From Mycobacterium sp. UM_WGJ (lineage in GTDB: Bacteria > Actinomycetota > Actinomycetes > Mycobacteriales > Mycobacteriaceae), in contig NZ_AUWR01000048.1 in NCBI RefSeq assembly GCF_000455125.1, positions 1 to 37,276 of the forward strand: DNA of 37,276 nt, read 5' to 3'. This document shows positions 22,474 to 36,266 of this stretch, one piece after another. Positions within the stretch are counted from its first letter, which is position 1; the number at the start of each line of letters is the position of its first letter. The position numbers and the translations under genes are program-made. The notes under the pieces were generated by a model. The model worked only from the letters and a program-made list of their open reading frames with translations, searched no databases and was not told the origin of the DNA.

Positions 22474-22487
22474 GGTTGTATTCCAGC

Positions 22488-23597
22488 ATGACCACGATCC
22501 GCGGTGCAGTGCTGGAGCGGATCGGGGCGCCGCGCCCTTATGCCGCCTCGCGCCCGCTGACGGTGACAGACGTGGAGCTGGCGCCGCCCGGCGACGGTGA
22601 GCTGCTGGTGCGGGTCGAGGCCGCCGGGGTCTGTCATTCCGATCTGTCCGTGGTCGACGGCAACCGGGTGCGTCCGGTGCCGATGCTGCTCGGCCATGAG
22701 GCCGCCGGCATCGTCGAAGCGGTCGGCGCCGGGGTCACCGCGGTGCGGCCGGGTCAGCGGGTAGTGCTGACCTTCCTGCCCCGCTGCGGCCACTGCGCGG
22801 CCTGCGCCACCGACGGCCTGGCGCCGTGTGAGCCCGGCAGCGCCGCCAACGGCGCGGGCATCCTGCTCGGCGGCGGGCAGCGGCTGCACCGCGGGGACCA
22901 GACCGTCTACCACCACCTCGGGGTCTCCGGGTTCGCCACGCATGCGGTGGTCAGCCAGACCAGCGCGGTGCCGGTACCCGACGACGTCCCGCCGACGGTG
23001 GCCGCCTTGCTGGGCTGTGCGGTGCTAACCGGTGGCGGCGCGGTGCTCAACGTCGGCCGTCCGGGGCCGGGCGACGCCGTCGCGGTGGTCGGACTCGGCG
23101 GAGTGGGGATGGCCGCGGTACTGACCGCGTTGGCCCACGACGGCGTGCAGGTGATCGCGATCGACCGGCTGCCGGACAAGCTGGCCGCCGCAACGGCGCT
23201 GGGCGCGCACCGCACCTACACCCCGCAGCAGGCACTCGACGCGGGCGTGCGCGCCCCGGTGGTGATCGATGCGGCGGGTCATCCCGCCGCGCTGGAGACC
23301 GCGATCGGCTTGACCGCACCGGGCGGGCGCACCATCACCGTCGGCCTGCCGCCTCCGGACGCCCGGATCAGCGTCTCCCCACTGGGTCTGGTTGCCGAGG
23401 GTCGCTCGTTGATCGGCAGCTACCTGGGGTCGGCGGTCCCCGCGCGCGACATCCCGCGCTTCGTGGCGTTGTGGCGGGCCGGCCGTCTGCCCGTCGAGCA
23501 GCTGGTGTCGGCGACCGTGCCACTCGAGCAGATCAACGAGGCCATGGACGCACTGGCCGACGGTGCCGCGGTACGTCAGATCATCACGTTCGCTTAG
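22488..23597 (+). CDS. adhE1: Zinc-type alcohol dehydrogenase, AdhE1/Rv0162c-like
   Basis: A 369-residue MDR-family dehydrogenase. Catalytic zinc ligands: Cys49 (GVCHSD), His70-Glu71 (GHEAAG) and Cys177. The structural zinc site is complete as Cys100, Cys103, Cys106 and Cys114. The Rossmann motif is GLGGVG at 202-207. The ATG at 22488 is preferred over the in-frame TTG at 22476, which would leave almost no space to the divergent thioesterase. Its position and orientation match Rv0162c beside Rv0163. The last 14 bases overlap the 3' end of the convergent monooxygenase gene. The symbol is by synteny. Confidence 0.8.
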   Translation: MTTIRGAVLERIGAPRPYAASRPLTVTDVELAPPGDGELLVRVEAAGVCHSDLSVVDGNRVRPVPMLLGHEAAGIVEAVGAGVTAVRPGQRVVLTFLPRCGHCAACATDGLAPCEPGSAANGAGILLGGGQRLHRGDQTVYHHLGVSGFATHAVVSQTSAVPVPDDVPPTVAALLGCAVLTGGGAVLNVGRPGPGDAVAVVGLGGVGMAAVLTALAHDGVQVIAIDRLPDKLAAATALGAHRTYTPQQALDAGVRAPVVIDAAGHPAALETAIGLTAPGGRTITVGLPPPDARISVSPLGLVAEGRSLIGSYLGSAVPARDIPRFVALWRAGRLPVEQLVSATVPLEQINEAMDALADGAAVRQIITFA

Positions 23598-25071
23598 CAC
23601 CGACGGCCGGTTCGAAGGTGAAGTCGGCGGTCCGGAACCGGCGGGTCATCGCCCAGAAGGCCCCGGCACTGCGCGGCCACTGGGTGACCACCCGGCCGTT
23701 GGCGGCACGAAAGTAGTTGCTGCAGCGGGTGGTCCACACCGTGCCGTGCATCCACCGGTCGATCTTGGCGATGAAGTCGGCCAGCGCGGCAGGGCGCACG
23801 GCGACATAGGACTTGCGGGTGCGGCGCAGGTGTTTGAGCACCCGAACGATGTAGCGCGCTTGGGCTTCCAATACGAAGATGACGCTGTTGGAGCCGACGT
23901 TGGTGTTGGGCCCGTAGAGCATGAAGAAGTTGGGGAAGCCGGGCATCGCCATGCCGAGGTAGGCGCGGGGCCCGTCGCGCCAGGCCTGTTTGAGTGTGGT
24001 GGCGTCCTCACCGGTCACCTCGATCTGACCGAGGTAATCCGCAGCGGCATATCCGGTGGCGCACACCACCACGTCGACCTCGCATTCGGTGCCGTCCTCG
24101 GCGACCACCGATCGGGAACGCAGGGCCCGCGCCGGGCTGGGCACCACTTCGACGTTGGGCCGGGTCAGCGCGGGCAGGTAGTCCGAGGAGAACACCAGAC
24201 GCTTGCAGCCCAGCGGGTGGTCGGGGGTGAGCGCTGCCCGCAACTGCTCGTCGGCGATGGAGTCGCCCAAGAGTTTTCGCGCGATGTCGGTGAACTGGCG
24301 GGTTTTGTCGCTGCCGTTCTCGATCACCGCGATGTTCGACTCGCTGCGCAGCCACAGTCGCGTCCGGTACAGCCGCTGGGCCAGCGGGATGCGGTCGAGG
24401 GCCCATCGCTCCCGCGGGGTGTAGCGACGGTCCGGCTTGGGCAGGATCCAGGTCGGGGACCGCTGCAGCGAGTACACCTTCTCGGCGACCTCGGCCAACT
24501 CCGGCAGCAGTTGCGCCGCGGTCGAACCCGTCCCGAGTACGGCGACTTTCGCACCGGCGAGCGGCACCGAATGATCCCACCGCGCCGAGTGCATCACGGT
24601 GCCCCCGAAGGGCTGTTCTTCGATCAGGTCGGGCAGCACCGGCTGGGTGAACAACCCCACCGCGGAGACCACCACGTCGAACCGATGCTGCGCACCGTCG
24701 CTGCTGCTCAGACACCACTGCCGCCCGTCCGGCTCCCAGCGGGCGGCGCGAATCTCGGTGCGCAGCCGCAGATGTGCGTCCAGGCCGTGGTCGGCCGCGC
24801 AGCGTTCGAAGTAGGCCAGTATCTCGGGTTGCTGCGACCACAGCCGCGACCAGTGCGGATTCAGGTCGAACGAATAGGAGTACAGGTGGGATTTGACGTC
24901 ACATGCCAGCCCCGGATACGTGTTGATCCGCCAGGTGCCGCCGACGCCGTCCTCCCGGTCGAAGATGGTGAAGTCGGAGAATCCGGCTCGCCGCAACAGG
25001 ATTCCCAGCGCCAGCCCTCCCGGCCCTGCACCGATGATGCCGACCGACGGGCCTTGCCCATGCCTGGTCAT
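23584..25071 (-). CDS. Baeyer-Villiger-type flavin monooxygenase
   Basis: A 495-residue class B flavoprotein monooxygenase. The FAD-binding GAGPGG is at 14-19. The Baeyer-Villiger fingerprint FxGxxxHxxxW is intact as FGGTVMHSARW (155-165). The NADPH-binding GTGSTA is at 180-185, and a late ATGY motif is present. Such enzymes insert oxygen next to a carbonyl, turning ketones into esters or lactones. The ATG at 25071 overlaps the SDR stop (ATGA), making it the last gene of a seven-gene - strand operon. A longer open frame back to 25605 only runs through the SDR gene. The substrate is unknown; a cyclic or long-chain ketone produced by the operon's dehydrogenases is plausible. Confidence 0.88.
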   Translation of the reverse strand: MTRHGQGPSVGIIGAGPGGLALGILLRRAGFSDFTIFDREDGVGGTWRINTYPGLACDVKSHLYSYSFDLNPHWSRLWSQQPEILAYFERCAADHGLDAHLRLRTEIRAARWEPDGRQWCLSSSDGAQHRFDVVVSAVGLFTQPVLPDLIEEQPFGGTVMHSARWDHSVPLAGAKVAVLGTGSTAAQLLPELAEVAEKVYSLQRSPTWILPKPDRRYTPRERWALDRIPLAQRLYRTRLWLRSESNIAVIENGSDKTRQFTDIARKLLGDSIADEQLRAALTPDHPLGCKRLVFSSDYLPALTRPNVEVVPSPARALRSRSVVAEDGTECEVDVVVCATGYAAADYLGQIEVTGEDATTLKQAWRDGPRAYLGMAMPGFPNFFMLYGPNTNVGSNSVIFVLEAQARYIVRVLKHLRRTRKSYVAVRPAALADFIAKIDRWMHGTVWTTRCSNYFRAANGRVVTQWPRSAGAFWAMTRRFRTADFTFEPAVGAKRT

Positions 25072-25799
25072 CGGATCTGCAGGCACTGGCCGCCGTCCAC
25101 CACGAGCTCGGCGCCGGTGATGAAAGACGCGGCTTGCGAAACCAGGAATGCCACCGCGTCCGCCACCTCGGCCGGGCGGCCGAGCCTGCCGCCCGGCGAC
25201 ACCGCGGCCAGGCGCTGCTGAGTGCCGTCGTCGAGCATCGGGGTGGCGATCGGCCCGGGAAATACCGCGTTGACCCGGATGCCCGTCGAGACGAGTTCCG
25301 CGGCGACGGTCTGCGTCAGGCCGCGAAGCGCCCATTTCGACGAACCGTAGGCGCTGTGCCGGCCGAAGGGTCGGATCGCCCCGGTGCTGCAGGTGTTGAC
25401 GATAGCTGCACCTTCGGCCGCCCGCAGTTGGTCCAGGGCCGCCTGGATGCCCAGGAATGCGCCCAGACAGTTGACCCGCCAAGCCCTTTCGAAGCCGTCG
25501 GGCGTCTCGTCGGCGATCGTGGCCCGGTGCAGGATGCCGGCGTTGTTGATCAACGCGGTCAGCGCCCCGAACCGCTGAATGGTCGCCGCCACCGCGGCCT
25601 CCCATTCCTCAGGACAGGTCACGTCGAGGCGGACGCCGATCAGCGCGTCGTCGGCCCGCGCGGCGACGGCGGCATGCAGCTCAGCTTCGTTGATGTCGCA
25701 GGCGACCACCGCGAAACCGTCGGCGAGCAGCCGTTCGGTGATGGCCCAGCCTTGGCCCCGGGCGGCGCCGGTGACCAGTGCAACCCGTGCCGGGGTCAT
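25068..25799 (-). CDS. Classical short-chain dehydrogenase/reductase (SDR)
   Basis: A 243-residue classical SDR. Cofactor motif TGAARGQG at 10-17, an Asp after the second strand (ACDINEAE) that favours NAD(H), NNAG at 85-88, and the catalytic set Ser138, Tyr151 and Lys155 (YGSSK). The late GPIATPM is also typical. It probably oxidises an alcohol to a ketone or the reverse. The ATG at 25799 overlaps the aldolase stop (ATGA) and its own stop overlaps the monooxygenase start, so translation is likely coupled. The substrate is inferred only from context. Confidence 0.9.
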   Translation of the reverse strand: MTPARVALVTGAARGQGWAITERLLADGFAVVACDINEAELHAAVAARADDALIGVRLDVTCPEEWEAAVAATIQRFGALTALINNAGILHRATIADETPDGFERAWRVNCLGAFLGIQAALDQLRAAEGAAIVNTCSTGAIRPFGRHSAYGSSKWALRGLTQTVAAELVSTGIRVNAVFPGPIATPMLDDGTQQRLAAVSPGGRLGRPAEVADAVAFLVSQAASFITGAELVVDGGQCLQIR

Positions 25800-26545
25800 C
25801 GGCCCCTCGCTTCCTCGAGATGTTCCAGGGCTCCTCGGCGCAGCGCCGCAGACTCGGCAGCCAACGTGATCATCTGGTAGCCCAGCCCGGCCAGGGCCGC
25901 TCCCGCCGCTCCCGATCCGCCGTGGATCGCCGCGATCACGCCCGCTTCGGTTGCCGCGGCCCGGATCCGTGCCATCGCCGCGAGCAGGTCGGGATGCGTG
26001 GTGGATTGGGCGACGTCGACGCCCATCGAGATCGCCAGATCGGCGGGCCCGACGTAGATTCCGGCCAGGCCGGGAACCGCACAGATGCGTTCCACGTCTG
26101 CCAGGGCCGCGGCGGTCTCGATCATCGCGAAGACATCCGCTCGCGATTCCAGGCCGGCCAGATCGCGGCCCAGGCCAGGCCGCAGCGGCCCGAAGCTGCG
26201 GATCCCGGCCGGCGGGTAGCGGGTGGCGGCCACCGCAGCGGCGGCCTGTTCGGCGGTCTCGATCAGCGCGATGATGACCGCGTCGGCGCCGGCATCGAGC
26301 ACCCGGCCGATGGGGGCAGCGTCCGCGTTGGGCAATCGGACCGCGGTGGCGATCGGCAGGTGTTCGGTGTGCCGCAGCATGGCCGCGATGTCGGCGTCGT
26401 CAAGGTAACTGTGTTGGGCGTCGAAACCCACGTAGTCATAGCCGGCGCGGGCGAATTCCTCCGGGCCCAGCACGGTGGGCCCGGTCACCCAGCCGCCCCA
26501 GAGCGGGGCCCGGTCCGCCACAGCGGCGCGCAGCGCCGACGTCAT
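25796..26545 (-). CDS. HpcH/HpaI-family (class II, metal-dependent) aldolase
   Basis: A 249-residue protein of the HpcH/HpaI aldolase/citrate lyase family. Residues equivalent to the HpaI active site are visible: His45 (FDAQHS), Arg70 (ATAVR), metal ligands Glu143 (MIETAAAL) and Asp169 (VGPADLAISMG), and the Gly/Pro-rich strand around 115-125. These enzymes cleave or form hydroxy-keto acids, releasing pyruvate or a related oxoacid. The ATG at 26545 overlaps the preceding stop (ATGA). In this operon it would act late, on a ring-opened product. Confidence 0.88.
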   Translation of the reverse strand: MTSALRAAVADRAPLWGGWVTGPTVLGPEEFARAGYDYVGFDAQHSYLDDADIAAMLRHTEHLPIATAVRLPNADAAPIGRVLDAGADAVIIALIETAEQAAAAVAATRYPPAGIRSFGPLRPGLGRDLAGLESRADVFAMIETAAALADVERICAVPGLAGIYVGPADLAISMGVDVAQSTTHPDLLAAMARIRAAATEAGVIAAIHGGSGAAGAALAGLGYQMITLAAESAALRRGALEHLEEARGR

Positions 26546-27510
26546 GCGACCATCGCGATCTTGACGCGGTCCGGCACCGGTCGGGCCGCCAACTCGAAGG
26601 CAGCCTGGGCTTCGTGGCAACCGAAGACATGAGTTACGTAGTTGCGCAACAGCTCCGGATTCTCCGCGGCGAATCGGCCTGCGGCTTCCAGCATCCGTCG
26701 CCGATCCTGGGTCACTCCGGAGATCAGCGTGAGATTGTTGCGCAGCATGGTCCGCATACTGATCGGATAACTGTCGTCGTCGGGGACACCGAAGTAGAAC
26801 ACCGTGCCACCGGGTGCGGCGGCCTCGATGGCGTGGCCCAGGGTGGCGACCTGGTGCCCGACCGCCTCGATCACGATCTCCGGGCGGTCGCCGGCGTCAA
26901 GGTGGCGCACCCAGCGGTCGCTGGTCGCCTGTACCACTGCGTCAATTCCGAAGGCGGCAGCCACATCTCGACGGTCGACCGGGTCCACCCCGGTGACGCG
27001 GCGCGCCCCCGCCGCTTTGGCGACGGCGCTGAACAGCAGACCGATCGAGCCCTGACCGATCACCGCCACATGGCGGCCGGCCAGGTCGGGCAACTGTTCC
27101 ACGGCGTAGAGCACGCATGCCAGCGGTTGCAGGCCCACGGCTTGGGCGGGTTCCAGCGCCGGGTCGTAGGCCACCAGTCCCTCGCCGTCGCTGATCACCC
27201 GTTCCATCAGTCCGTCGAAGCCCGATGCCCACCCGACGACTCGGTCGCCGCGTCGATGCTGCGGGTGCCGACTGGTGATGACGTCGCCGACGATCTCATG
27301 GATCGGGAAGCCGAGTTTCTCCGCGGCCGCGGCGCCGTCGTCGCCGGGCAACCTGCCCTGCGCGCCGCGAAAGGCCGGCAGGTCACTGCCGCATACCCCG
27401 GCGGCCACGAACTGCAGCAGCACCTGCCCGGCGCCGAGCTCCTGCTCGGTGGGGTCGGGGGCTTCTATCTTCTCGAACTGATACGGCGCGATCAACCGGT
27501 ACGCCCACAT
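26542..27510 (-). CDS. Zinc-type medium-chain dehydrogenase (threonine/sorbitol dehydrogenase-like)
   Basis: A 322-residue MDR protein. Cys40 (GVCGSD) and His71-Glu72 (FPIHEIVGD) keep the catalytic zinc positions, and the cofactor loop is GQGSIG at 152-157. The lobe with four structural zinc cysteines is missing, and the usual GHE is IHE, so it is a shortened variant. It likely oxidises a secondary alcohol with NAD(P). The ATG at 27510 follows the P450 stop after one base, fitting the idea that it acts on the P450 product. Confidence 0.85.
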   Translation of the reverse strand: MWAYRLIAPYQFEKIEAPDPTEQELGAGQVLLQFVAAGVCGSDLPAFRGAQGRLPGDDGAAAAEKLGFPIHEIVGDVITSRHPQHRRGDRVVGWASGFDGLMERVISDGEGLVAYDPALEPAQAVGLQPLACVLYAVEQLPDLAGRHVAVIGQGSIGLLFSAVAKAAGARRVTGVDPVDRRDVAAAFGIDAVVQATSDRWVRHLDAGDRPEIVIEAVGHQVATLGHAIEAAAPGGTVFYFGVPDDDSYPISMRTMLRNNLTLISGVTQDRRRMLEAAGRFAAENPELLRNYVTHVFGCHEAQAAFELAARPVPDRVKIAMVA

Positions 27511-27511
27511 C

Positions 27512-28741
27512 TCAGACCTCCACCGGGATGGTGTTCCAGCCCCACTGAAAACTGGACGGCAGCCGGGTCGCGCCGTCGTCGGCGATCTGAAAGTTCGGGA
27601 CGCGGCGCAGCCATTCCTGCACCAGGACAGTCACTTCCAGCCGGGCCAGGTGATAGCCGATGCAGAAGTGCTGCCCGCGACCGAACGCCAGTGACCGTTT
27701 GATCGGCCGGTCCCAACGGAATTCGTCGGGTTCGGGGTATTCGCGTCCGTCGCGATTGGCCGACGCCAGCAGGGTGATGATGCGTTGGCCCGGCTCAACA
27801 GTCGTGCCGTGCAGCGTGAACGGTTTGCGGGCGGTGCGCGCGAACCATTGCGCCGGTGCGCAGTAGCGGATCATCTCCTCGCGTGCCAGCTGCACCGTGT
27901 GGTGCGGATCGGCCCGTACCGCGGCTAGTTGATCCGGACGCCGAGACAGTTCCCACAACCCGTGCGCGACGATCTTGGGCACGGTCTCGGTGCCGCCGAT
28001 GAAGATGCAGAGCAGTTGTGTCGCGGCTTCGACGTCATCGAGATCGCTGCCGTCGGGCAGTCGGTAGGCCAGCATCCCGTCGACGATCGGCAGTTCGCCG
28101 GAGCCCTGCTCAGCGCGCCGGCGTTGCACCGCCGGGATGAGGTACTGCAGGTAGTTGGGCCGCGCCGCGGCGGTGTCCACCCCGCTGCCGGCCTGCGCGA
28201 GACTTCCGGCGTTCACCGTCGCCAACACCTCTGCGGCGCATTCGACCGGAATGCCCAGCAGTTCGCAGACCACTTGAGCCACCACGACACCGCCGTAATC
28301 ACAGGTCAGGTCGAACTGGCCCTGCGGAAGCAGCTCATCGAGCCGCTGATTGGCCAATTCACGGACCCGGCCTTGCCAGTCCACCACCGAGCGGGGCCGA
28401 AACGCCGGGGACTGCAACCGGCGAATGTCGTCGTAGATCGGCTTGTCGAAGACGGCGTGGAAAGGCAACGGGTGCAGTGGCGGGTCCGGCACCGGGCCGC
28501 TGTTGTGGTGCGCCAGCACGGTGGCCGCCGGCAGTGTTCCCTCCGAGGCCACGAACGTTCCGTCACTGACCGCCAGTACGTCCCAGATGTCGTCGAAGCG
28601 CGACAGGGCGTACAGATCCCACTGCGGGACGTAATACATCGGGTGGTGATCGCGTAGCACCCGGTAGTACGGCAGCGGGTCGGCCATCACCGCCGGGTCG
28701 AACGGATCGTAGGAGAACTCCGGCGCGGCAACGCTTGTCAT
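27512..28741 (-). CDS. Cytochrome P450
   Basis: A 409-residue soluble bacterial P450. The heme-binding loop FGRGQHFCIG places the proximal Cys at 360. The K-helix ExxR is E289-M-I-R292, and the oxygen-binding I-helix is IGGTETV (248-254), with Glu before the Thr instead of the more common Asp. The family number (CYP) cannot be given without comparison. The ATG at 28741 overlaps the previous stop (ATGA). No ferredoxin or ferredoxin reductase gene is in the window, so electrons must come from elsewhere. It probably performs the first hydroxylation in the pathway. Confidence 0.92.
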   Translation of the reverse strand: MTSVAAPEFSYDPFDPAVMADPLPYYRVLRDHHPMYYVPQWDLYALSRFDDIWDVLAVSDGTFVASEGTLPAATVLAHHNSGPVPDPPLHPLPFHAVFDKPIYDDIRRLQSPAFRPRSVVDWQGRVRELANQRLDELLPQGQFDLTCDYGGVVVAQVVCELLGIPVECAAEVLATVNAGSLAQAGSGVDTAAARPNYLQYLIPAVQRRRAEQGSGELPIVDGMLAYRLPDGSDLDDVEAATQLLCIFIGGTETVPKIVAHGLWELSRRPDQLAAVRADPHHTVQLAREEMIRYCAPAQWFARTARKPFTLHGTTVEPGQRIITLLASANRDGREYPEPDEFRWDRPIKRSLAFGRGQHFCIGYHLARLEVTVLVQEWLRRVPNFQIADDGATRLPSSFQWGWNTIPVEV

Positions 28742-29454
28742 CTGTCGTCTCGCTGCAGCGGGCAGGGCGGCAGTGCTTGCAGGATCGAGTCCTCCCAGCC
28801 GTCGCGTAAGGCGGGCGCCACACTCATCCACGTCACGATCTCCGCCGGCGGGTGGTCCTTCCACGACGGGTAATGCTCGGCGAAGCAGTCCCAGCCGCCG
28901 TCCAGTGCCCAGTAGTGGATGACCTCGTTGTAGCGGAACGTGGTGGTGAACGAACCGAGCCAGCGCTTGCCGGTGCTCTCCGACCACGGCACATATAGGC
29001 GTTCCAATTCCCGGATGTAATCGTCTTGGCGACCGGGTTTGGTCTGCATGATCTCCTGAATGACAACGGTCGCGTCGAAGTCGGCCGCGCGCAACTCAGC
29101 CAAGGTCCTGTTGTGCGGGCCGGGGTACATGATGCGGCCCTCCCCCGATGCTCCGATTCCGGCGAGGTAGGCCGACCATTCGGCCGCCGGCGGGGCGTGG
29201 CTACCGCCGCGGCCCTGCGCCCGCCCGATTCGGGCGTAGTCGGCGAACGCGTCGATCTCCCAGATGATCGTGACCTGCGGCCAGTGCCCGTTGTAGGCGG
29301 TGGACTCCCACAGCGCGAACAGCCGGGCACCCAACTCGGTCATCATCGGCTGGTAGATCTCGGTGAAGTTGCGGGTGAAGTCGTCGCGCAGCCCACGGCC
29401 CAGATTGATCGTCTCGTGCAGGTAGAGCAGGGTGTGGTCGTAATGCTTGCGCAT
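28738..29454 (-). CDS. NIPSNAP/EthD-like tandem ferredoxin-fold protein (putative)
   Basis: A 238-residue protein with what looks like two diverged copies of one unit. The first (about 5-85) runs from TLLYLHETINLGRGLRDDF to TIIWEIDAFADYARI. The second (about 135-215) runs from ATVVIQEIMQTKPGRQDDYI to IHYWALDGGWDCFAEH. Both follow a strand, helix, strand pattern with a conserved Gly-Asp-Asp, a Pro and a closing W/D, as in NIPSNAP, EthD and other dimeric alpha/beta-barrel proteins. The ATG at 29454 overlaps the preceding TGA by one base. EthD-type proteins accompany P450 systems elsewhere; a helper or small-molecule role here is inference. Confidence 0.55.
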   Translation of the reverse strand: MRKHYDHTLLYLHETINLGRGLRDDFTRNFTEIYQPMMTELGARLFALWESTAYNGHWPQVTIIWEIDAFADYARIGRAQGRGGSHAPPAAEWSAYLAGIGASGEGRIMYPGPHNRTLAELRAADFDATVVIQEIMQTKPGRQDDYIRELERLYVPWSESTGKRWLGSFTTTFRYNEVIHYWALDGGWDCFAEHYPSWKDHPPAEIVTWMSVAPALRDGWEDSILQALPPCPLQRDDR

Positions 29455-30005
29455 CAGCCGACCGGGACCAGGTCGGAATTGACGGGCAGGCAATGCTTCT
29501 GGTCACTGCGGAAAATCTCCGGCCCGTCGCACGGCGCCGCGTGCCCGGCGGCAGCAAGCGCCTGCCGCTTGAACGCCCGGCCCGCCACGGTGGGCAGGTG
29601 CTGCACTGGGCTGAGCCGATGGCTGACCTCCAGCGGCCAGCGCTCGCCCCACAACACGACCTGGGTCAGGCTGCTCCGCAGGGCGTGATGCACCCGCGCC
29701 CTGATACGGGGATCGGTGGCGAGCGCGTCGGCGACCACCGCCAGGCTGTGTCCGGGTGCATCGCTGTGCGCGGCAGACAGTTCCGTCTCGAGGTCTGCGG
29801 TATCGAGCCCCAGGATCTGCAACGGCCGGACATCTTGGTGCGGCGGCGCCAACACCCGCACATCCCAGCCGGTCGCCGCACGGTGATACAGCCACCCGCC
29901 GGCCGCGTGCACCAGGTCGGCGACATCGGGGGCGATGACATCGAGGCGGTAGCGCAGGTGGGGGTCCCGCGTCAGGGAATCCAGGGCCGCAGCGGTACTC
30001 GTCAT
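29454..30005 (-). CDS. Hypothetical protein, first gene of the P450 operon
   Basis: A 183-residue protein that I do not recognise. It is soluble, with no signal peptide or membrane segment. The N-terminal third has a beta-like YRLDVIAPDVADLVHAAGGW and WDVRVLAPP. Residues about 65-150 look helical and contain several His and Arg. The end (EIFRSDQKHCLPVNSDLVPVG) has a single conserved-looking Cys. The ATG at 30005 has GGGA 7 bases upstream. It is translationally coupled to the next gene (TGATG) and lies 88 bases from intergenic motif A, so it heads the seven-gene operon. Confidence 0.7.
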   Translation of the reverse strand: MTSTAAALDSLTRDPHLRYRLDVIAPDVADLVHAAGGWLYHRAATGWDVRVLAPPHQDVRPLQILGLDTADLETELSAAHSDAPGHSLAVVADALATDPRIRARVHHALRSSLTQVVLWGERWPLEVSHRLSPVQHLPTVAGRAFKRQALAAAGHAAPCDGPEIFRSDQKHCLPVNSDLVPVG

Positions 30006-30090: not shown

Positions 30091-30120
30091 ATATTACAGT
30101 TGAAGCTAAATTTGTAAAGC
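30091..30120. promoter_or_regulatory. Shared regulatory element, copy A (divergent P450 operon / DUF427 gene)
   Basis: TTACA (30094-30098), 14 bases, TGTAA (30113-30117), followed by AG. It shares TTGAAGC and TTTGTAAAG with copy B. On the - strand the same DNA reads as a strong promoter, TTTACA (30118-30113), 16 bases, TAATAT (30096-30091), pointing at the P450 operon. On the + strand it reads ATTACA, 16 bases, TAAAGC. It may be a TetR operator, a bidirectional promoter, or both. Confidence 0.6.
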
Positions 30121-30149
30121 CGAATGAGGTGGACACGGGTGGGAGCGCG

Positions 30150-30845
30150 ATGAGTCTGGTTGCCGGACACGGTCCGCTGAGCACCGAGCGCGCCGGCTGG
30201 TTCGCCCCGGAGATCACCGGGGCCCTGGTGTACGTCGAACCGCATCCGCGCCGCGTCCGGGCGATCCGGGGGGAGCGCACCGTGATCGACAGCGAACGCG
30301 CGCTGCTGGTGCATCGCCAGGGCGAGCCGCTGGCCTACGCCTTCCCCGCGGACGCCGTCGGCGATCTTCCGCACCGGGCGCTGCCGGAGGCATCGGGTTT
30401 CGTGCAGGTTCCGTGGGACGCCGTGGACGCCTGGTTCGAAGAGGGCCGGCGGCTGGTGCACTACCCGCCGAACCCCTATCACCGGGTCGATTGCCGGCCC
30501 ACCCGGCGCGCATTGCGGGTCGAAGTCGACGGAGTGGTCCTGGTGGACACCGATGACACCGTGATCCTGTTCGAGACGGCCCTGGCACCGCGCCTGTACG
30601 TCGCCGCGGACTACTTGCGCACGGATCTGTTGCGGGCTTCGACGACGTCGACCTACTGCAACTACAAGGGCTATGCCCGCTATTGGTCCGCGTTCATCGG
30701 AGACACCGTCGTGCCGGACGTGGCCTGGAGCTATCCGGACCCGCTGCCCGAGAGTGCACCCATCGCAGGTCTTTTCAGCTTTGATCTGTCGCTGGTCGGC
30801 GGTTTCGCCGAACTACCCGGCGCGGCAGGGCGCCCGCGGCTATAG
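30150..30845 (+). CDS. Tandem DUF427 protein
   Basis: A 231-residue soluble protein with two DUF427-type units. The first (about 28-115) contains VRAIRGERTVIDSERALLVH and the Asp-rich DAVGDLPH. The second (about 125-205) contains LRVEVDGVVLVDTDDTVILF, YVAADYLRTDLL and the well-conserved STYCNYKGYARYWSA. DUF427 has no assigned reaction. The ATG at 30150 has GGGAG about 4 bases upstream; an in-frame GTG at 30129 lies at the predicted transcription start and is an alternative. It is divergent from the P450 operon across motif A. Its stop sits in a CTATAG palindrome shared with the convergent thioesterase. Confidence 0.82.
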   Translation: MSLVAGHGPLSTERAGWFAPEITGALVYVEPHPRRVRAIRGERTVIDSERALLVHRQGEPLAYAFPADAVGDLPHRALPEASGFVQVPWDAVDAWFEEGRRLVHYPPNPYHRVDCRPTRRALRVEVDGVVLVDTDDTVILFETALAPRLYVAADYLRTDLLRASTTSTYCNYKGYARYWSAFIGDTVVPDVAWSYPDPLPESAPIAGLFSFDLSLVGGFAELPGAAGRPRL

Positions 30846-31739
30846 CCGCGAGTGCTCGGCGATCTTGTTGTCGCTGGTGCGCAGCGGCCGGATCAGGCCG
30901 TCCTGGGCGAACGAGGCCAGGATAGCGCCCTCCTCGGTGTGCACGGTGCCGCGAACATAGGACATGCCCGCGCCCACCTGGGTGCTTTCATGCCCGTAGA
31001 GGATCCAGCCGTCCCAGCGCACCGGCTCGTGGAAGCTCACGGTGACCGTCATGGGAGCGGTGGACACCGTCAGGTGCGACTGGCTGGTGCCGATCCCGGC
31101 GTGCGCGCGCATCGTCGTCGAGATGCCCAGATGTCCGGTGAAGTAAGCGATCAGCGCTTTGGCGAGATCGTCGCGGGCGGGAATGGGCTCATAGTGCAAC
31201 CAGGCGTAGAGCTCCGGCGGGCCCACCTCGTCGGGGCTGTTGACGTCGACGACGTCGACCAGGCGTACCTCGCGTCCGGTCATCGGCATGGCACAGGGGT
31301 TGGACTGCGCGGGGCCTGCCACTTCAGGGCGGGGCAGGTGGTGGGTGATCACGTCGGCCGACGGAACATCCGCCAGCACGGTGATGGTTGCGCAGCGCTT
31401 CTGGTTCTGCAGCACTGAGATCACCGCGGTGGCCGTGGAACGGCCCTCGTTGACCACGTCGATCACGTATTCCGCCGCCGGTCCGACCAGCACAGCCCGG
31501 GCGAACACCGCGTGCACCGACCGGACGGACTTGTCGCTGAAGCGTTTCGCCGCCGCGACGATCGCCTGCGCCACCAGTTGGGTGCCTTCGACGACTTGGC
31601 GCTCGTCGTCGCCGGCCAGGCCGGTCGCGCCGGTGAACCGGTCCGGGCCGTCGGCCGTCACCTCGAACAGGTCCAGCAGGCCGCCGACTGACCATTGCGG
31701 CGCGGCGGAAGTCTCGGTGGCCGGAGATGCTTCAGACAT
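30840..31739 (-). CDS. TesB-like acyl-CoA thioesterase II (double hotdog)
   Basis: A 299-residue double-hotdog thioesterase. The first domain has the family phrase QVVEGTQLVAQAIVAAAKRF and SVHAVFARAV. The second has DGWILYGHESTQVGAGMSYV, RGTVHTEEGAILASFAQDGL and IRP, where TesB enzymes carry their active-site Thr/Ser and Gln. It hydrolyses acyl-CoA to free acid plus CoA. The ATG at 31739 has no clear ribosome site. Motif B begins only 7 bases upstream, so expression must be tightly tied to that element. Confidence 0.87.
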   Translation of the reverse strand: MSEASPATETSAAPQWSVGGLLDLFEVTADGPDRFTGATGLAGDDERQVVEGTQLVAQAIVAAAKRFSDKSVRSVHAVFARAVLVGPAAEYVIDVVNEGRSTATAVISVLQNQKRCATITVLADVPSADVITHHLPRPEVAGPAQSNPCAMPMTGREVRLVDVVDVNSPDEVGPPELYAWLHYEPIPARDDLAKALIAYFTGHLGISTTMRAHAGIGTSQSHLTVSTAPMTVTVSFHEPVRWDGWILYGHESTQVGAGMSYVRGTVHTEEGAILASFAQDGLIRPLRTSDNKIAEHSRL

Positions 31740-31745
31740 TCCGCG

Positions 31746-31776
31746 AGCGTGACATTTGAAGCGAATTTTGTAAAGT
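31746..31776 (+). promoter_or_regulatory. Shared regulatory element, copy B (divergent tesB-like / SMP-30)
   Basis: AGCGTGACA (31746-31754) and TTTTGTAAAGT (31766-31776) are identical to copy C, at the same distance; the inside shares TTGAAGC with copy A. As an operator it is TGACA-N14-TGTAA. As a + strand promoter it is GTGACA (-35), 16 bases, TAAAGT (-10, 31771-31776), with a start expected near 31783. That is about 35 bases before the SMP-30 gene. Confidence 0.65.
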
Positions 31777-31817
31777 AGGCCTAACCGCGCCCGCGGCCGC
31801 CGGACAGGAGGGCGACA

Positions 31818-32687
31818 GTGTTGGGTATCGCCGAAACAAGTTCACAGCAGGACAACCCGGGTTCCGAGTCCCCGCCGGTGCCGCTGGCGGGCGGCTTCTG
31901 CTTCGGCGAGGGCCCGCGCTGGTTCGAGGGGCTGCTGTGGTTCTCCGACATGCTCGGCGAGGCGATCCACACCGTGAACCTGCGCGGCTCGATGACCACG
32001 GTGCCGCTGCCGGGACACACTCCCAGCGGGCTGGGTTTCCGGCCGGACGGAACGCTGTTGATCGCCTCGGCGTCCGATCGCAAGGTGCTCTGCTACGACG
32101 GTGACACCGTGACCACGCTGGTCGACCTGAGCGAGCAGGTGCCCGCGGACCTCGGCGACATGGTGGTGGACGCCGCAGGCCGCTGCTACATCGGGTCGCA
32201 GGCCTACTCCGGCGGCGTGCTGGTACGCGTCGACCCCGACGCCGGCGTGCATCTCGTCGCCGAGGATCTCGACTTTCCCAACGGAATGGCGATCGCCCCG
32301 GACGGCGGCACGCTGATCGTCGCCGAGTCGATGGACCGCCGGCTCACCCGGTTCACCATCGAAGCCGACGGCGGGCTGCGTGACCGCCGGGTGTTCGCCG
32401 ACGGGTTGGACGGACCACCGGACGGCATTGCGCTGGACGCCGCCGGCGGGGTCTGGACGGCGATGACCCTGGCCAATCAGTTCGAGCGCATTACCGAGGG
32501 CGGCGTGGTAACCGACCGCATCGCAACCGGCGAGCGGGCTGCGATCGCGTGCGCGCTGGGCGGGCCGAGTCGCCGCACGCTGTTCCTGCTGTCCAGCCCC
32601 ACCGCCTACCCGAAGCGCCTGATCGGCACCCGCGACTCGCGCTTGGACACCGTGACCGTGGAGATCCCCGGCGCCGGATTGCCCTGA
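31818..32687 (+). CDS. SMP-30/gluconolactonase-family lactonase
   Basis: A 289-residue six-bladed beta-propeller of the SMP-30/gluconolaconase/LRE family. The N-terminal metal ligand Glu is in FCFGEGPRWFEGLLWFSDML. The central Asn is in LDFPNGMAIAPDG, and the second metal Asp is in LDGPPDGIALDAAGGVW. These enzymes hydrolyse lactones using a divalent metal. The GTG at 31818 has a clear AGGAGG (31806-31811), 6 bases upstream. In this island it is the natural partner of the Baeyer-Villiger enzyme, opening the lactone it would form. Confidence 0.88.
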   Translation: MLGIAETSSQQDNPGSESPPVPLAGGFCFGEGPRWFEGLLWFSDMLGEAIHTVNLRGSMTTVPLPGHTPSGLGFRPDGTLLIASASDRKVLCYDGDTVTTLVDLSEQVPADLGDMVVDAAGRCYIGSQAYSGGVLVRVDPDAGVHLVAEDLDFPNGMAIAPDGGTLIVAESMDRRLTRFTIEADGGLRDRRVFADGLDGPPDGIALDAAGGVWTAMTLANQFERITEGGVVTDRIATGERAAIACALGGPSRRTLFLLSSPTAYPKRLIGTRDSRLDTVTVEIPGAGLP

Positions 32688-32697
32688 GGTGGATTCG

Positions 32698-33504
32698 ATG
32701 ACCGACTCCTACTACGAGTTACTGGACGCCGCCGATCCGCGGGGCGAGAAGTTCGGGGCCACCGATCTGGTGCGCGGCACGTGGTCGGCTCAGATCCAGC
32801 ACGCCGCACCGGTGTCGGCGCTGCTGGTGCGGGCACTGGAACGCTTGGCGGCGCGGGACGACACCCGGCTCAGCCGGGTCAGCATCGACCTGTTGGGCCC
32901 GGTGCCCGCCGAAGGCGCGCTGTGGGTGCGCGGCCAGGTCGACCGGGCCGGCAAGCAGATCGAACTGGTCAGCGCCGAGATGCTGGCACCCGGCCCCGAC
33001 CAGCTGCCGCGACCGGTCGCCCGTGCATCCGGTTGGCGGTTGCAGACGTTGGACACCGGCGACGTACAGCACGCCTCGGCTCCCCCGCTGCTGCCGGTCA
33101 GTGCGGCACAAACCAACAACATGCAGCAGAACTGGGACCGCAACTACATCCACAGCCTGGACTGGCGGTGGCTGACCACGCCGTTGGCCCCCGGCGCCGG
33201 TGAAGCCTGGATCTCGCCGCTCGTGGACCTGGTCAAGGGTGAAGTGATGACTCCGCTGCAGCGGTTGTTCGCGGTGGCCGACGACGCCAACGGGGTCGGC
33301 ACCAAGCTCGACATCAGAAAGTGGACGTTCCTCAACACCGACCTGGTGGTGCACGTGCACCGGGTTCCCGACGGCGAGTGGATCGGCATCCGGGCCGAGA
33401 CCAACTACGGCCCCGACGGCATCGGGACGACCATCGGCACCTTGTTCGACCAGCAGGGCGCGGTGGCGGGCATTGCGCAGTCAGTCCTGGTGCGCCGTCG
33501 TTAG
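32698..33504 (+). CDS. Thioesterase-family protein (4HBT_3-like double hotdog)
   Basis: A 268-residue protein resembling mycobacterial thioesterase-family acyl-CoA hydrolases: an N-terminal hotdog with RGTWSAQIQHAAPVSALLVR and LSRVSIDLLGPVP, and a C-terminal hotdog with EVMTPLQRLFAVADDANGVG, FLNTDLVVHVHR and the closing GTLFDQQGAVAGIAQSVLVR. The ATG at 32698 has GAGGTGG 5 bases upstream; the in-frame GTG at 32689 is less likely. It follows the lactonase gene after 10 bases, so they form a two-gene operon under motif B. Its stop overlaps that of the convergent SDR-like gene by 4 bases. Confidence 0.82.
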   Translation: MTDSYYELLDAADPRGEKFGATDLVRGTWSAQIQHAAPVSALLVRALERLAARDDTRLSRVSIDLLGPVPAEGALWVRGQVDRAGKQIELVSAEMLAPGPDQLPRPVARASGWRLQTLDTGDVQHASAPPLLPVSAAQTNNMQQNWDRNYIHSLDWRWLTTPLAPGAGEAWISPLVDLVKGEVMTPLQRLFAVADDANGVGTKLDIRKWTFLNTDLVVHVHRVPDGEWIGIRAETNYGPDGIGTTIGTLFDQQGAVAGIAQSVLVRRR

Positions 33505-34097
33505 CGACCCGCTCCCACAGCCGGGAGCATTTCGACCAGACGCAGCCGCGGCTCGGTAGCCATCCCGGCGAGCAGGCGGCCGGCCGCAGCGGTGGAGGCG
33601 CCCGGCCCCGGCCGGACCGACCGCACGGCCGAGGCCCGAACCCCGGTGCCGACGAATTCCGCGTCCAAGGCCGCCAGCCAGGCGTCGACCTTGTGCTGTG
33701 CGGTCGCGCAGTGCACCCCGGCGAACTCCGGGCCGACCAGCACCACATCACCGCTGCCCCGGGCGATCATGGCCGGAATCACCCGGGTGGCCAGGGTTTG
33801 CGCACCCACACCGGCGCCGTCTGGTGACTCGCCCGCCGGGCCGGCCAGGCCGACATCGGTGATGAGCACGTCCGGGGTACCGATGAGATAGTGCGCGGCG
33901 GCGAGGAACTCGTTGATTGACCGCGGGTCTGCGAGATCGAGATGGGCAGCGAACGCGCTGCCGCCGCGGTCTCGCAGCTGCGCCGCGAACCGCTCGGACT
34001 CCGCGATTCGCCGACCGCCGAGCAACACCAGGTGTCCTTGGGCGGCCAACTGCGCGGCGGCCACCTGGCCGATCCCGGCTGCTTCGATGACGATCAT
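33501..34097 (-). CDS. SDR-fold protein with degenerate cofactor and active-site motifs
   Basis: A 198-residue Rossmann-fold protein of SDR type, but the signatures are lost. The cofactor motif TGxxxGxG is IEAAGIGQ, NNAG is ITDVGL, and the YxxxK tetrad is TAQHK, with Thr in place of the catalytic Tyr and no clear Ser in VLVGPEFAG. Recognisable parts are QLAAQGHLVLLGGRR, FAAHLDLADP and ATRVIPAMIARGSGDVV. It is also short for the family (usually about 250). ATG at 34097 is chosen to match the family start; a GTG at 34154 would add VIEAPQVTYEERTHPLRAV, which oddly repeats the VIEA phrase. It is divergent from the TetR gene across motif C. Confidence 0.65.
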   Translation of the reverse strand: MIVIEAAGIGQVAAAQLAAQGHLVLLGGRRIAESERFAAQLRDRGGSAFAAHLDLADPRSINEFLAAAHYLIGTPDVLITDVGLAGPAGESPDGAGVGAQTLATRVIPAMIARGSGDVVLVGPEFAGVHCATAQHKVDAWLAALDAEFVGTGVRASAVRSVRPGPGASTAAAGRLLAGMATEPRLRLVEMLPAVGAGR

Positions 34098-34221
34098 CAC
34101 GGCTCGCAGCGGATGCGTGCGTTCCTCGTACGTGACTTGCGGCGCTTCGATCACAATAATTGCCCTACGGCCCGGCCCAGGGGGCCCGCGACGGTGAGGA
34201 ACGATGTCCAGGCACCGAACC

Positions 34222-34252
34222 AGCGTGACACTCTCGCTATATTTTGTAAAGT
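34222..34252 (+). promoter_or_regulatory. Shared regulatory element, copy C (tetR promoter/operator)
   Basis: AGCGTGACA (34222-34230) and TTTTGTAAAGT (34242-34252) match copy B exactly, with the same 11-base gap. As promoter: GTGACA, 16 bases, TAAAGT (34247-34252), then 7 bases to the A of the tetR ATG, the exact geometry of a leaderless mycobacterial start. As operator: TGACA-N14-TGTAA. A repressor bound here would block its own gene. Confidence 0.68.
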
Positions 34253-34259
34253 CTTTGCT

Positions 34260-34793
34260 ATGACCCGCAGCACGGTGGACGGCCCCGACAACTCGAGCCG
34301 GCAGCGGATCCTCGCGGCCACCGCCGAGGTGCTCGGGCGCAATGGATTGACCAAGCTCAGCCTGTCCGAGGTAGCCTCCCAGGCCGGGGTCTCCCGCCCC
34401 ACCCTGTATCGGTGGTTCCCGTCGAAGGAAGAACTGATCTCGGCGTTCTCTCGTTACGAGCGGCACATCTTCGACAGCGGGATCGCGCGCGCTACCGAAG
34501 GACTCAAGGGCACCGAAAAGCTCGACGCTGCACTGCGTTTCATCGTCGAATACCAACACTCATATACGGGTGTGCGAATGATCGACATCGAGCCCAAGCA
34601 CGTGCTCGCCGACTTCTCCCGGATCATGGTGCCGATGCGCGAGGGTCTGAAGCGGATGCTGACCGGGCCGGATGCGGCGGTGAAGGCGGCCGCCGCGATC
34701 CGGATCGCCATCTCGCACTACATCATTCGCAGCGACGACTCCGAGGAGTTCCTCGCCCAGCTGCGTCAGGCTGTCGGCATCAAGCACCGCTAG
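34260..34793 (+). CDS. TetR-family transcriptional regulator
   Basis: A 177-residue TetR regulator. The DNA-binding domain occupies about 12-58: SRQRILAATAEVLGRNGLTK, then LSLSEVASQAGVSRPTLYRW and FPSKEELISA, the helix-turn-helix being about 34-54. The C-terminal ligand domain (60-177) is diverged, as usual. The ATG at 34260 probably begins a leaderless message, since TAAAGT ends 7 bases upstream and no ribosome site exists. A longer open frame upstream to 33942 is rejected because it runs through the promoter and the divergent gene. It is the only regulator gene in the island and the best candidate to bind motifs A-C. Confidence 0.9.
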   Translation: MTRSTVDGPDNSSRQRILAATAEVLGRNGLTKLSLSEVASQAGVSRPTLYRWFPSKEELISAFSRYERHIFDSGIARATEGLKGTEKLDAALRFIVEYQHSYTGVRMIDIEPKHVLADFSRIMVPMREGLKRMLTGPDAAVKAAAAIRIAISHYIIRSDDSEEFLAQLRQAVGIKHR

Positions 34794-36230: not shown

Positions 36231-36266
36231 GAAGCCGGTCTACCACACCCGGGGCTACCTTTAGGC

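Follow-up and report, generated by a model that had tools for sequence, protein, structure and literature searches.

A short imperfect palindrome with the core TKACA-N14-TGTAA(A)G recurs in three intergenic regions of a catabolic gene island in the non-tuberculous mycobacterium Mycobacterium sp. UM_WGJ, and we propose that its copies (A, B, and C) are candidate operators of the TetR-family protein encoded at 34260–34793, which would form an autoregulated catabolic regulon. Judging from sequence comparisons, we put the probability of this reading at roughly 0.83. The stretch analyzed (hereafter, the window) comprises 37,276 nt of contig NZ_AUWR01000048.1, from a genome (G000) of 4,473,234 bases.

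Occurrence of the element and its tie to TetR

An exact-pattern scan found TKACA-N14-TGTAA in the window at 30094–30117 (A, which matches on both strands), 31750–31773 (B), and 34226–34249 (C) and at no other place, with a mean chance expectation of 0.03 (100 shuffles). An earlier note on this DNA had reported three copies with AG after each, which the scan and a reading of the letters bore out; likewise, AGCGTGACA and ATTTTGTAAAGT are common to B and C at equal spacing, and the scan agreed with the note that the flanking divergent gene pairs (22474–22487 and 36231–36266) carry no exact copy. CTTTACA is the most constant half-site of the palindrome. The heptamer TTGAAGC does occur in both A and B, but we rejected a functional role for it, as its position is within the variable spacer and relatives do not, as a rule, conserve it; the sharing is probably a coincidence.

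Genome-wide, the element proved rare. Specifically, TKACA-N14-TGTAAAG occurred at 5 sites in the 4.47-Mb genome compared with 0 for a reversed control pattern, so that the element is not common before unrelated genes, a possibility raised by the earlier note. Across 71 genomes of the genus, there were 294 matches to the element and 21 to the control (~0.3 per genome), which places three copies inside 4.2 kb far from chance. The two sites outside the island each lie between minus-strand genes: site D (contig C24, position 19965) is flanked by genes for an enoyl-CoA hydratase and a thiolase, and site E (contig C14, position 35166) by the stop of a gene for a 209-aa TetR protein and the start of a short-chain dehydrogenase (SDR) gene. 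This 209-aa protein was also weighed as a candidate binder of E. The three genomes that encode the most similar TetR (G016, G022, and G069) have retained both D and E. A related site, scoring at least 9.5 of 11 (a cut-off picked after looking), precedes 22 of 30 thiolase orthologues (the 30 best of those matched), and the second-best window in those loci scores no more than 8. An SDR orthologue lies within ~1.5 kb of an element copy in G067, G018, and G004. As a side observation, a gene of the mpaB/rubber-oxygenase family is found just past the TetR gene adjoining site E (L006, 10884–12092).

The element also co-occurs with the island's TetR, which was detected (E ≤ 1e-20) in 61 of 119 genomes, all 61 in the window's GTDB genus; the remaining 10 of the 71 genus genomes, two of them <81% complete, are without it. 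The element was present in 56 of the 61 TetR-positive genomes and in none of the 10 negative ones, where the control pattern had 3 matches (one-sided Fisher test, 6.5e-9, a value that ignores the shared ancestry of the genomes). It was also absent from all 28 genomes sampled from the order's other families. Among genomes G000–G041, the element was found in 34/34 TetR-positive and 0/8 negative genomes. For G042–G070, the expectation (all positives, no negatives) was written down before the search answer was seen; the two negatives (G044 and G050) lacked the element as expected, and 22 of 27 positives carried it, compared with the expected 27. Co-occurrence alone cannot name the binder, because pathway genes also follow TetR: orthologues of the thiolase (at least 73% identity) and of the SDR (at least 68%) are present in none of the 10 TetR-negative genomes, nor are they present in all positive ones.

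As far as sequence can tell, the position of the element at tetR says more about the binder than co-occurrence does. In five genomes (G004, G018, G024, G043, and G053), one element copy precedes the tetR match by 96–105 bp, and a further two, ~4.9–5.0 kb apart, lie elsewhere, beside an SDR orthologue. These remote copies are at least 1.4 Mb from tetR on one contig in G004 and on other contigs in the other four; island genes around them were seen in G004 only. Beyond the genus, a single Acidimicrobiales metagenome-assembled genome (L060) encodes a TetR that is 51% identical and carries a perfect inverted repeat, GTTACAGA-N10-TCTGTAAC, which ends 4 nt before an in-frame ATG; the neighbors of its tetR include phosphotransferase-like and Rieske oxygenase genes, with no island genes in its 4.8 kb. 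When 267 element places were compared with 86 listed tetR genes, the distance to one of these genes was at most 20 kb for 180 places and at most 40 kb for 192. An exact copy lies within 20 kb of 59 of the 64 tetR genes with 60–100% identity, and one lies no more than 300 bp upstream of 13 of the 17 relatives with 45–60% identity and of 0 of the 5 below 45%.

The regulator itself belongs to the TetR family by its N-terminal TetR_N helix-turn-helix domain (54.2 bits; Pfam cut-off, 24) and reaches no NCBIfam cut-off in a profile search, falling well short of the KstR (31.7 versus 280 bits) and FasR (35.2 versus 330 bits) equivalogs and of the mycofact_TetR model of MftR (31.4 versus 224.9 bits). 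A search of the PDB returned distant TetR relatives such as LfrR, Mce3R, and EthR, the last with weak similarity at the N-terminal DNA-binding part (E = 7e-6), and a plasmid search gave no match. In a search across the phylum (396 genomes, with 8 candidates scored per genome shown), this TetR reached E ≤ 1e-18 in 10 genomes, every one from the window's genus and the window's own among them.

The search for copies yielded further observations. TetR relatives of ~50% identity have copies of the TGACATT-N-ATGTAAAG type just upstream in G007 (C122), G030 (C14), G039 (C1, 1.70 Mb), G040 (C85), G045 (C1, 2.42 Mb), and G068 (C11), and five of these six have a second copy within ~1.5 kb. A region of ~82 kb in G067 (C4, 87937–170166; L114–L118) contains 15 distinct exact-element places, two TetR genes of the subfamily, and the thiolase and SDR orthologues, and the same genome has a second island copy on C36 (L119). 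Far from tetR, a recurrent near-palindrome of the TTACACACT-GCCGTAATGTGTAAAG type in G006, G036, G045, G047, and G062 may belong to another regulator. Sites of the TGACA-ATGAC-GAGGCTGTAAAG type, also far from tetR (G001, G017, G036, G038, G046, G048, G051, G058, G061, and G062), show coding-like variation and are probably chance matches inside a conserved gene.

Table 1. Candidate operators and island genes in the window
Feature	Position	Strand	Comment
Element A	30091..30120		Candidate palindromic operator TTACA-N14-TGTAA; overlapped by minus promoter TTTACA-N16-TAATAT (30118..30091)
Element B	31746..31776		Candidate operator TGACA-N14-TGTAA; plus promoter GTGACA-N16-TAAAGT (31749-31776) toward SMP-30/TE3
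Element C	34222..34252		Candidate operator TGACA-N14-TGTAA; plus promoter GTGACA-N16-TAAAGT (34225-34252), 7 nt before tetR ATG
tetR	34260..34793	+	177 aa; Pfam TetR_N (longer open reading frame [ORF]); proposed binder of A, B, C, and two sites outside the window
SDR2, short-chain dehydrogenase-like	33501..34115	-	Start codon uncertain, ~34100-34160
TE3, acyl-CoA thioesterase family protein	32689..33504	+	
SMP-30/gluconolactonase family protein	31818..32687	+	
TE2, acyl-CoA thioesterase family protein	30840..31739	-	
DUF427 protein	30150..30845	+	
hyp, hypothetical protein	29454..30005	-	Gene adjoining A on its minus side
NIPSNAP-like protein	28738..29493	-	Weak match, under the Pfam cut-off
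Cytochrome P450	27512..28750	-	Listed ORF begins further upstream, at 28987
ADH2, zinc alcohol dehydrogenase	26542..27510	-	
HpcH/HpaI aldolase family protein	25796..26560	-	Listed ORF 25796-26620
SDR1, short-chain dehydrogenase	25068..25799	-	
BVMO, flavin monooxygenase, Baeyer-Villiger-like	23584..25071	-	FMO-like; listed ORF to 25605; contains FGGTVMHSARWD

Overlapping promoters and conservation across loci

A promoter scan called the plus-strand promoters of B and C and the minus-strand promoter of A (Table 1) sigma-70-like, with 4 hits compared with 0.4 expected. By eye, opposed promoter elements are readable both ways in A, B, and C; the scan called one direction in each. The minus-strand promoter of A faces the hyp, NIPSNAP, P450, ADH2, HpcH, SDR1, and BVMO genes, and the plus-strand −10 toward the DUF427 gene (TAAAGC) is weak. 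On the minus strand of B and C, the putative promoters would read TTTACA-N17-CACGCT, toward TE2 (31774..31746) and SDR2 (34250..34222), respectively; we infer CACGCT as a −10 because of its spacing and because the AGCG flank changes in loci without SDR2 (see below). The −35 of each promoter lies at the −10 region of its opposed partner, with predicted starts ~45 bp apart.

Autoregulation is indicated in the window by position, with the −10 of C ending 7 nt before the tetR ATG, and this gap is 6–7 nt in 15/15 C copies. Similarly, CACGCT lies 6 nt from the TE2 ATG on the minus strand in 16/16 B copies, and at site D TTTACA-N16-TAAGGT is followed after 7 nt by an ATG, toward the thiolase gene, in 4/4 genomes. 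The 6–7-nt spacing at tetR and TE2 is what would be predicted of leaderless mRNAs, which are described as common in mycobacteria (PMC4633059).

Conservation in related islands, named in the earlier note as a check on its proposal, was found in Mycolicibacter and in other mycobacteria. Mycolicibacter species are the closest named relatives of the window (the TetR of an M. heraklionensis strain is 95% identical), and A and B are kept in 16/16 of their island-bearing loci (window included), with A carrying GATATTACA or AATATTACA in every one. Copy C is kept in 15 Mycolicibacter loci, including L041, where the island is lost. The element recurs in M. celatum, M. kyorinense, strain MFM001, and M. 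shimoidei and in further genomes whose islands are rearranged, where its copies are found variously at the SMP-30, TE2, hyp, NIPSNAP, and tetR genes. The location between divergent genes that the earlier note described holds in the window but not as a general rule: the off-island copies, and C in six loci without SDR2, sit between co-directional genes (TE3 and tetR in the latter case), and we therefore rejected a need for divergent flanking genes.

The loci without SDR2 amount to a natural test of an operator and opposed promoters that share bases. The left flank of C is AGCG in all 8 Mycolicibacter loci with a divergent SDR2 and also in L055, L056, and L058; in L057, the flank is kept and the first core base is changed (AGCGGGACA). 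Among the seven SDR2-less loci that keep C (L041, L042, L043, L045, L048, L051, and L052), AGCG is found in none, TGACA and TTTGTAA stay, and the A that corresponds to the final T of the minus −10 has been replaced in all seven. This reflects substitution rather than a deletion joint, since the outer bases in at least L042, L045, and L048 still resemble those of the other loci. On a three-protein tree rooted on the M. celatum group (some nodes weak), we counted by eye ~five separate losses of SDR2. The plus −10 retains its final T in 16/16 copies of B and 15/15 of C, in 6/16 of A, in 2/4 of E, and in 0/4 of D. Because flank and −10 bases change and the core stays, operator letters are separable from promoter letters, and both are apparently present.

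Proposed mechanism and alternatives

Under the mechanism that we propose, a TetR dimer would sit on the palindrome, over sigma-A-type promoters, and block RNA polymerase toward both neighbors, closing tetR itself, SMP-30/TE3, TE2, DUF427, and the P450-to-BVMO genes. Each arm of the palindrome would provide the −35 for one promoter while touching or overlapping the −10 of the opposed one, and one operator could close two outward promoters in this way. The two remote operators would add the thiolase and SDR genes, which could put the entire pathway under the control of one protein, and a pathway compound, by analogy an acyl-CoA, may release the repressor. The 13-gene local TetR regulon of the earlier note is supported by the rarity, conservation, and TetR tie of the element; its size was underestimated, as the regulon proposed here extends to the off-island thiolase and SDR. 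More tentatively, at slightly less than even odds, the element may be a three-in-one DNA word whose arms act as half-operators, as opposed −35s, and as part of (or next to) the −10s, giving compact, mutually exclusive, and jointly repressible divergent promoters that would be leaderless on some sides; evolution would then edit the promoter bases to suit the neighbors and hold the operator letters fixed.

Several observations weigh against TetR operators of this kind. The symmetric core without the AAG extension, TKACA-N14-TGTMA, occurs at 6 places in the genome (the five known sites and one on contig C55) compared with 3 per strand for its control, i.e., it is less specific, from which it follows that the extension matters. 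The site is missing from 8 of the 30 thiolase orthologues, and of 20 SDR orthologues only the four closest have it immediately upstream, leaving 16 without. Five TetR-positive genomes (G042, G055, G056, G063, and G070) lack the exact element, and a looser pattern failed to rescue them; by eye, one-mismatch versions can be seen in G055 and G056, weaker ones in G042, and none in G063 and G070, and the stretches fetched from these five showed no P450 or SMP-30 orthologues close to tetR. For 75 of the 267 element places, every listed tetR is more than 40 kb away or on another contig, and some of these places are recurrent and coding-like and may be chance matches. An exact copy lies no more than 300 bp upstream of only 19 of the 64 tetR genes with 60–100% identity, and autoregulation via an exact site is therefore not universal. 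CACGCT matches TATAAT in two of its six bases and went uncalled in the promoter scan. Finally, copy C is missing from L053 and L054, where tetR directly follows TE3, and L059 (M. arupensis) retains tetR with neither island nor element.

Two further remarks concern these loci. The element-less tetR of L053 and L054 (9930–10010 in each) may be transcribed from element B and would then still be self-controlled. The island has been lost and tetR kept beside ADH1 in both L041 and L059; element C is present in the former and absent from the latter.

Could the element be nothing more than a sigma-factor promoter (−35, 16 bases, −10) common to these genes, one that contains no binding site for a regulator? 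The three sigma-70-like calls and the leaderless spacing at tetR in 15/15 loci are in keeping with this idea. However, a housekeeping sigma factor is expected everywhere, yet the 10 genus genomes lacking TetR at E ≤ 1e-20 do not contain the exact element; a polymerase using the plus −10 at site E would run into the 3′ end of another gene; and the last −10 base is not kept at E (T, C, C, T), at D (A, G, A, C), or at A (T in 6/16), whereas TGTAAAG is. We therefore rejected a sigma promoter as the sole cause and regard this alternative as very improbable. The earlier note had listed it as a competing or overlapping explanation, and the promoter calls speak for overlap rather than competition. It is also quite unlikely, if a little less remote, that a different regulator traveling with the pathway binds the element and TetR is a bystander. 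Co-occurrence cannot tell which co-inherited gene binds, and the absence of thiolase and SDR orthologues from all 10 TetR-negative genomes fits this alternative. Nevertheless, the element marks tetR itself in the five genomes whose pathway sites lie elsewhere, stands in perfect form just before the tetR of the Acidimicrobiales genome, and is found close upstream of most tetR relatives of 45–60% identity, and none of the other island proteins scanned in the window was recognized as a regulator.

TetR-family proteins with operators over −35/−10 regions are mostly repressors, and here the operator covers the −35 and −10 of one promoter, a position suited to steric repression. This bears on the possibility that TetR is mainly an activator, or has a dual role, and sets the direction of polymerase on opposed promoters. 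A single operator over promoters facing opposite ways would suit such a role, and direction-setting by regulators is described for bidirectional promoters of E. coli (PMC12825309). We consider an activating or dual role unlikely and infer that TetR, on binding, would repress the island promoters.

Island genes and relation to known systems

The gene set (P450, zinc alcohol dehydrogenase, BVMO-like, SMP-30, HpcH/HpaI, thioesterases, and thiolase) suggests oxidative ring opening followed by later CoA steps, although any pathway substrate or repressor ligand that we might name would be a guess. The BVMO-like protein matched the pentalenolactone D synthase model far under its cut-off.

KstR and KstR2 are TetR-family autoregulated repressors of mycobacterial catabolic regulons, and the system described here is like them in having a TetR protein, a candidate palindromic operator over lipid-like catabolic promoters, local and remote sites, and predicted autoregulation. 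It differs from KstR in the protein, as the equivalog score above indicates, and in its genes (P450, BVMO-like, and SMP-30), and its operator differs from both the KstR and KstR2 motifs. EthR, a mycobacterial TetR protein, controls the Baeyer-Villiger monooxygenase EtaA; the present system shares that pairing of protein types, but the similarity to EthR is weak. In Tn10 tetR/tetA, operators lie over the overlapping divergent promoters of the TetR repressor and its target, although there the operators are two and shorter and the genes confer resistance. MftR, the mycofactocin regulator, is also a mycobacterial TetR-family protein, reported to be induced by long-chain acyl-CoA (PMC8728441), but it is separated from our TetR by its model score and has other targets. 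In E. coli, AcrR is described as a TetR-family autorepressor of the divergent, overlapping promoter pair at acrAB/acrR, and bidirectional promoters as having the −10 in common, with starts often 10, 18, or 23 bp apart (PMC12825309). The acrAB case resembles the overlay of an operator on opposed promoters proposed here but concerns efflux, not catabolism, and has a different promoter geometry. In the excerpts of the open-licence literature matches listed, we recognized nothing on this regulator, motif, or island.

TetR-autoregulated catabolic regulons are already known, and this system is of an ordinary, well-known kind. What it adds is a link between a mycobacterial TetR subfamily, carried by 61 of the 71 sampled genus genomes, and a specific candidate operator and set of oxidation genes, and this TetR/operator link provides a direct route to the inducer and substrate of the pathway.

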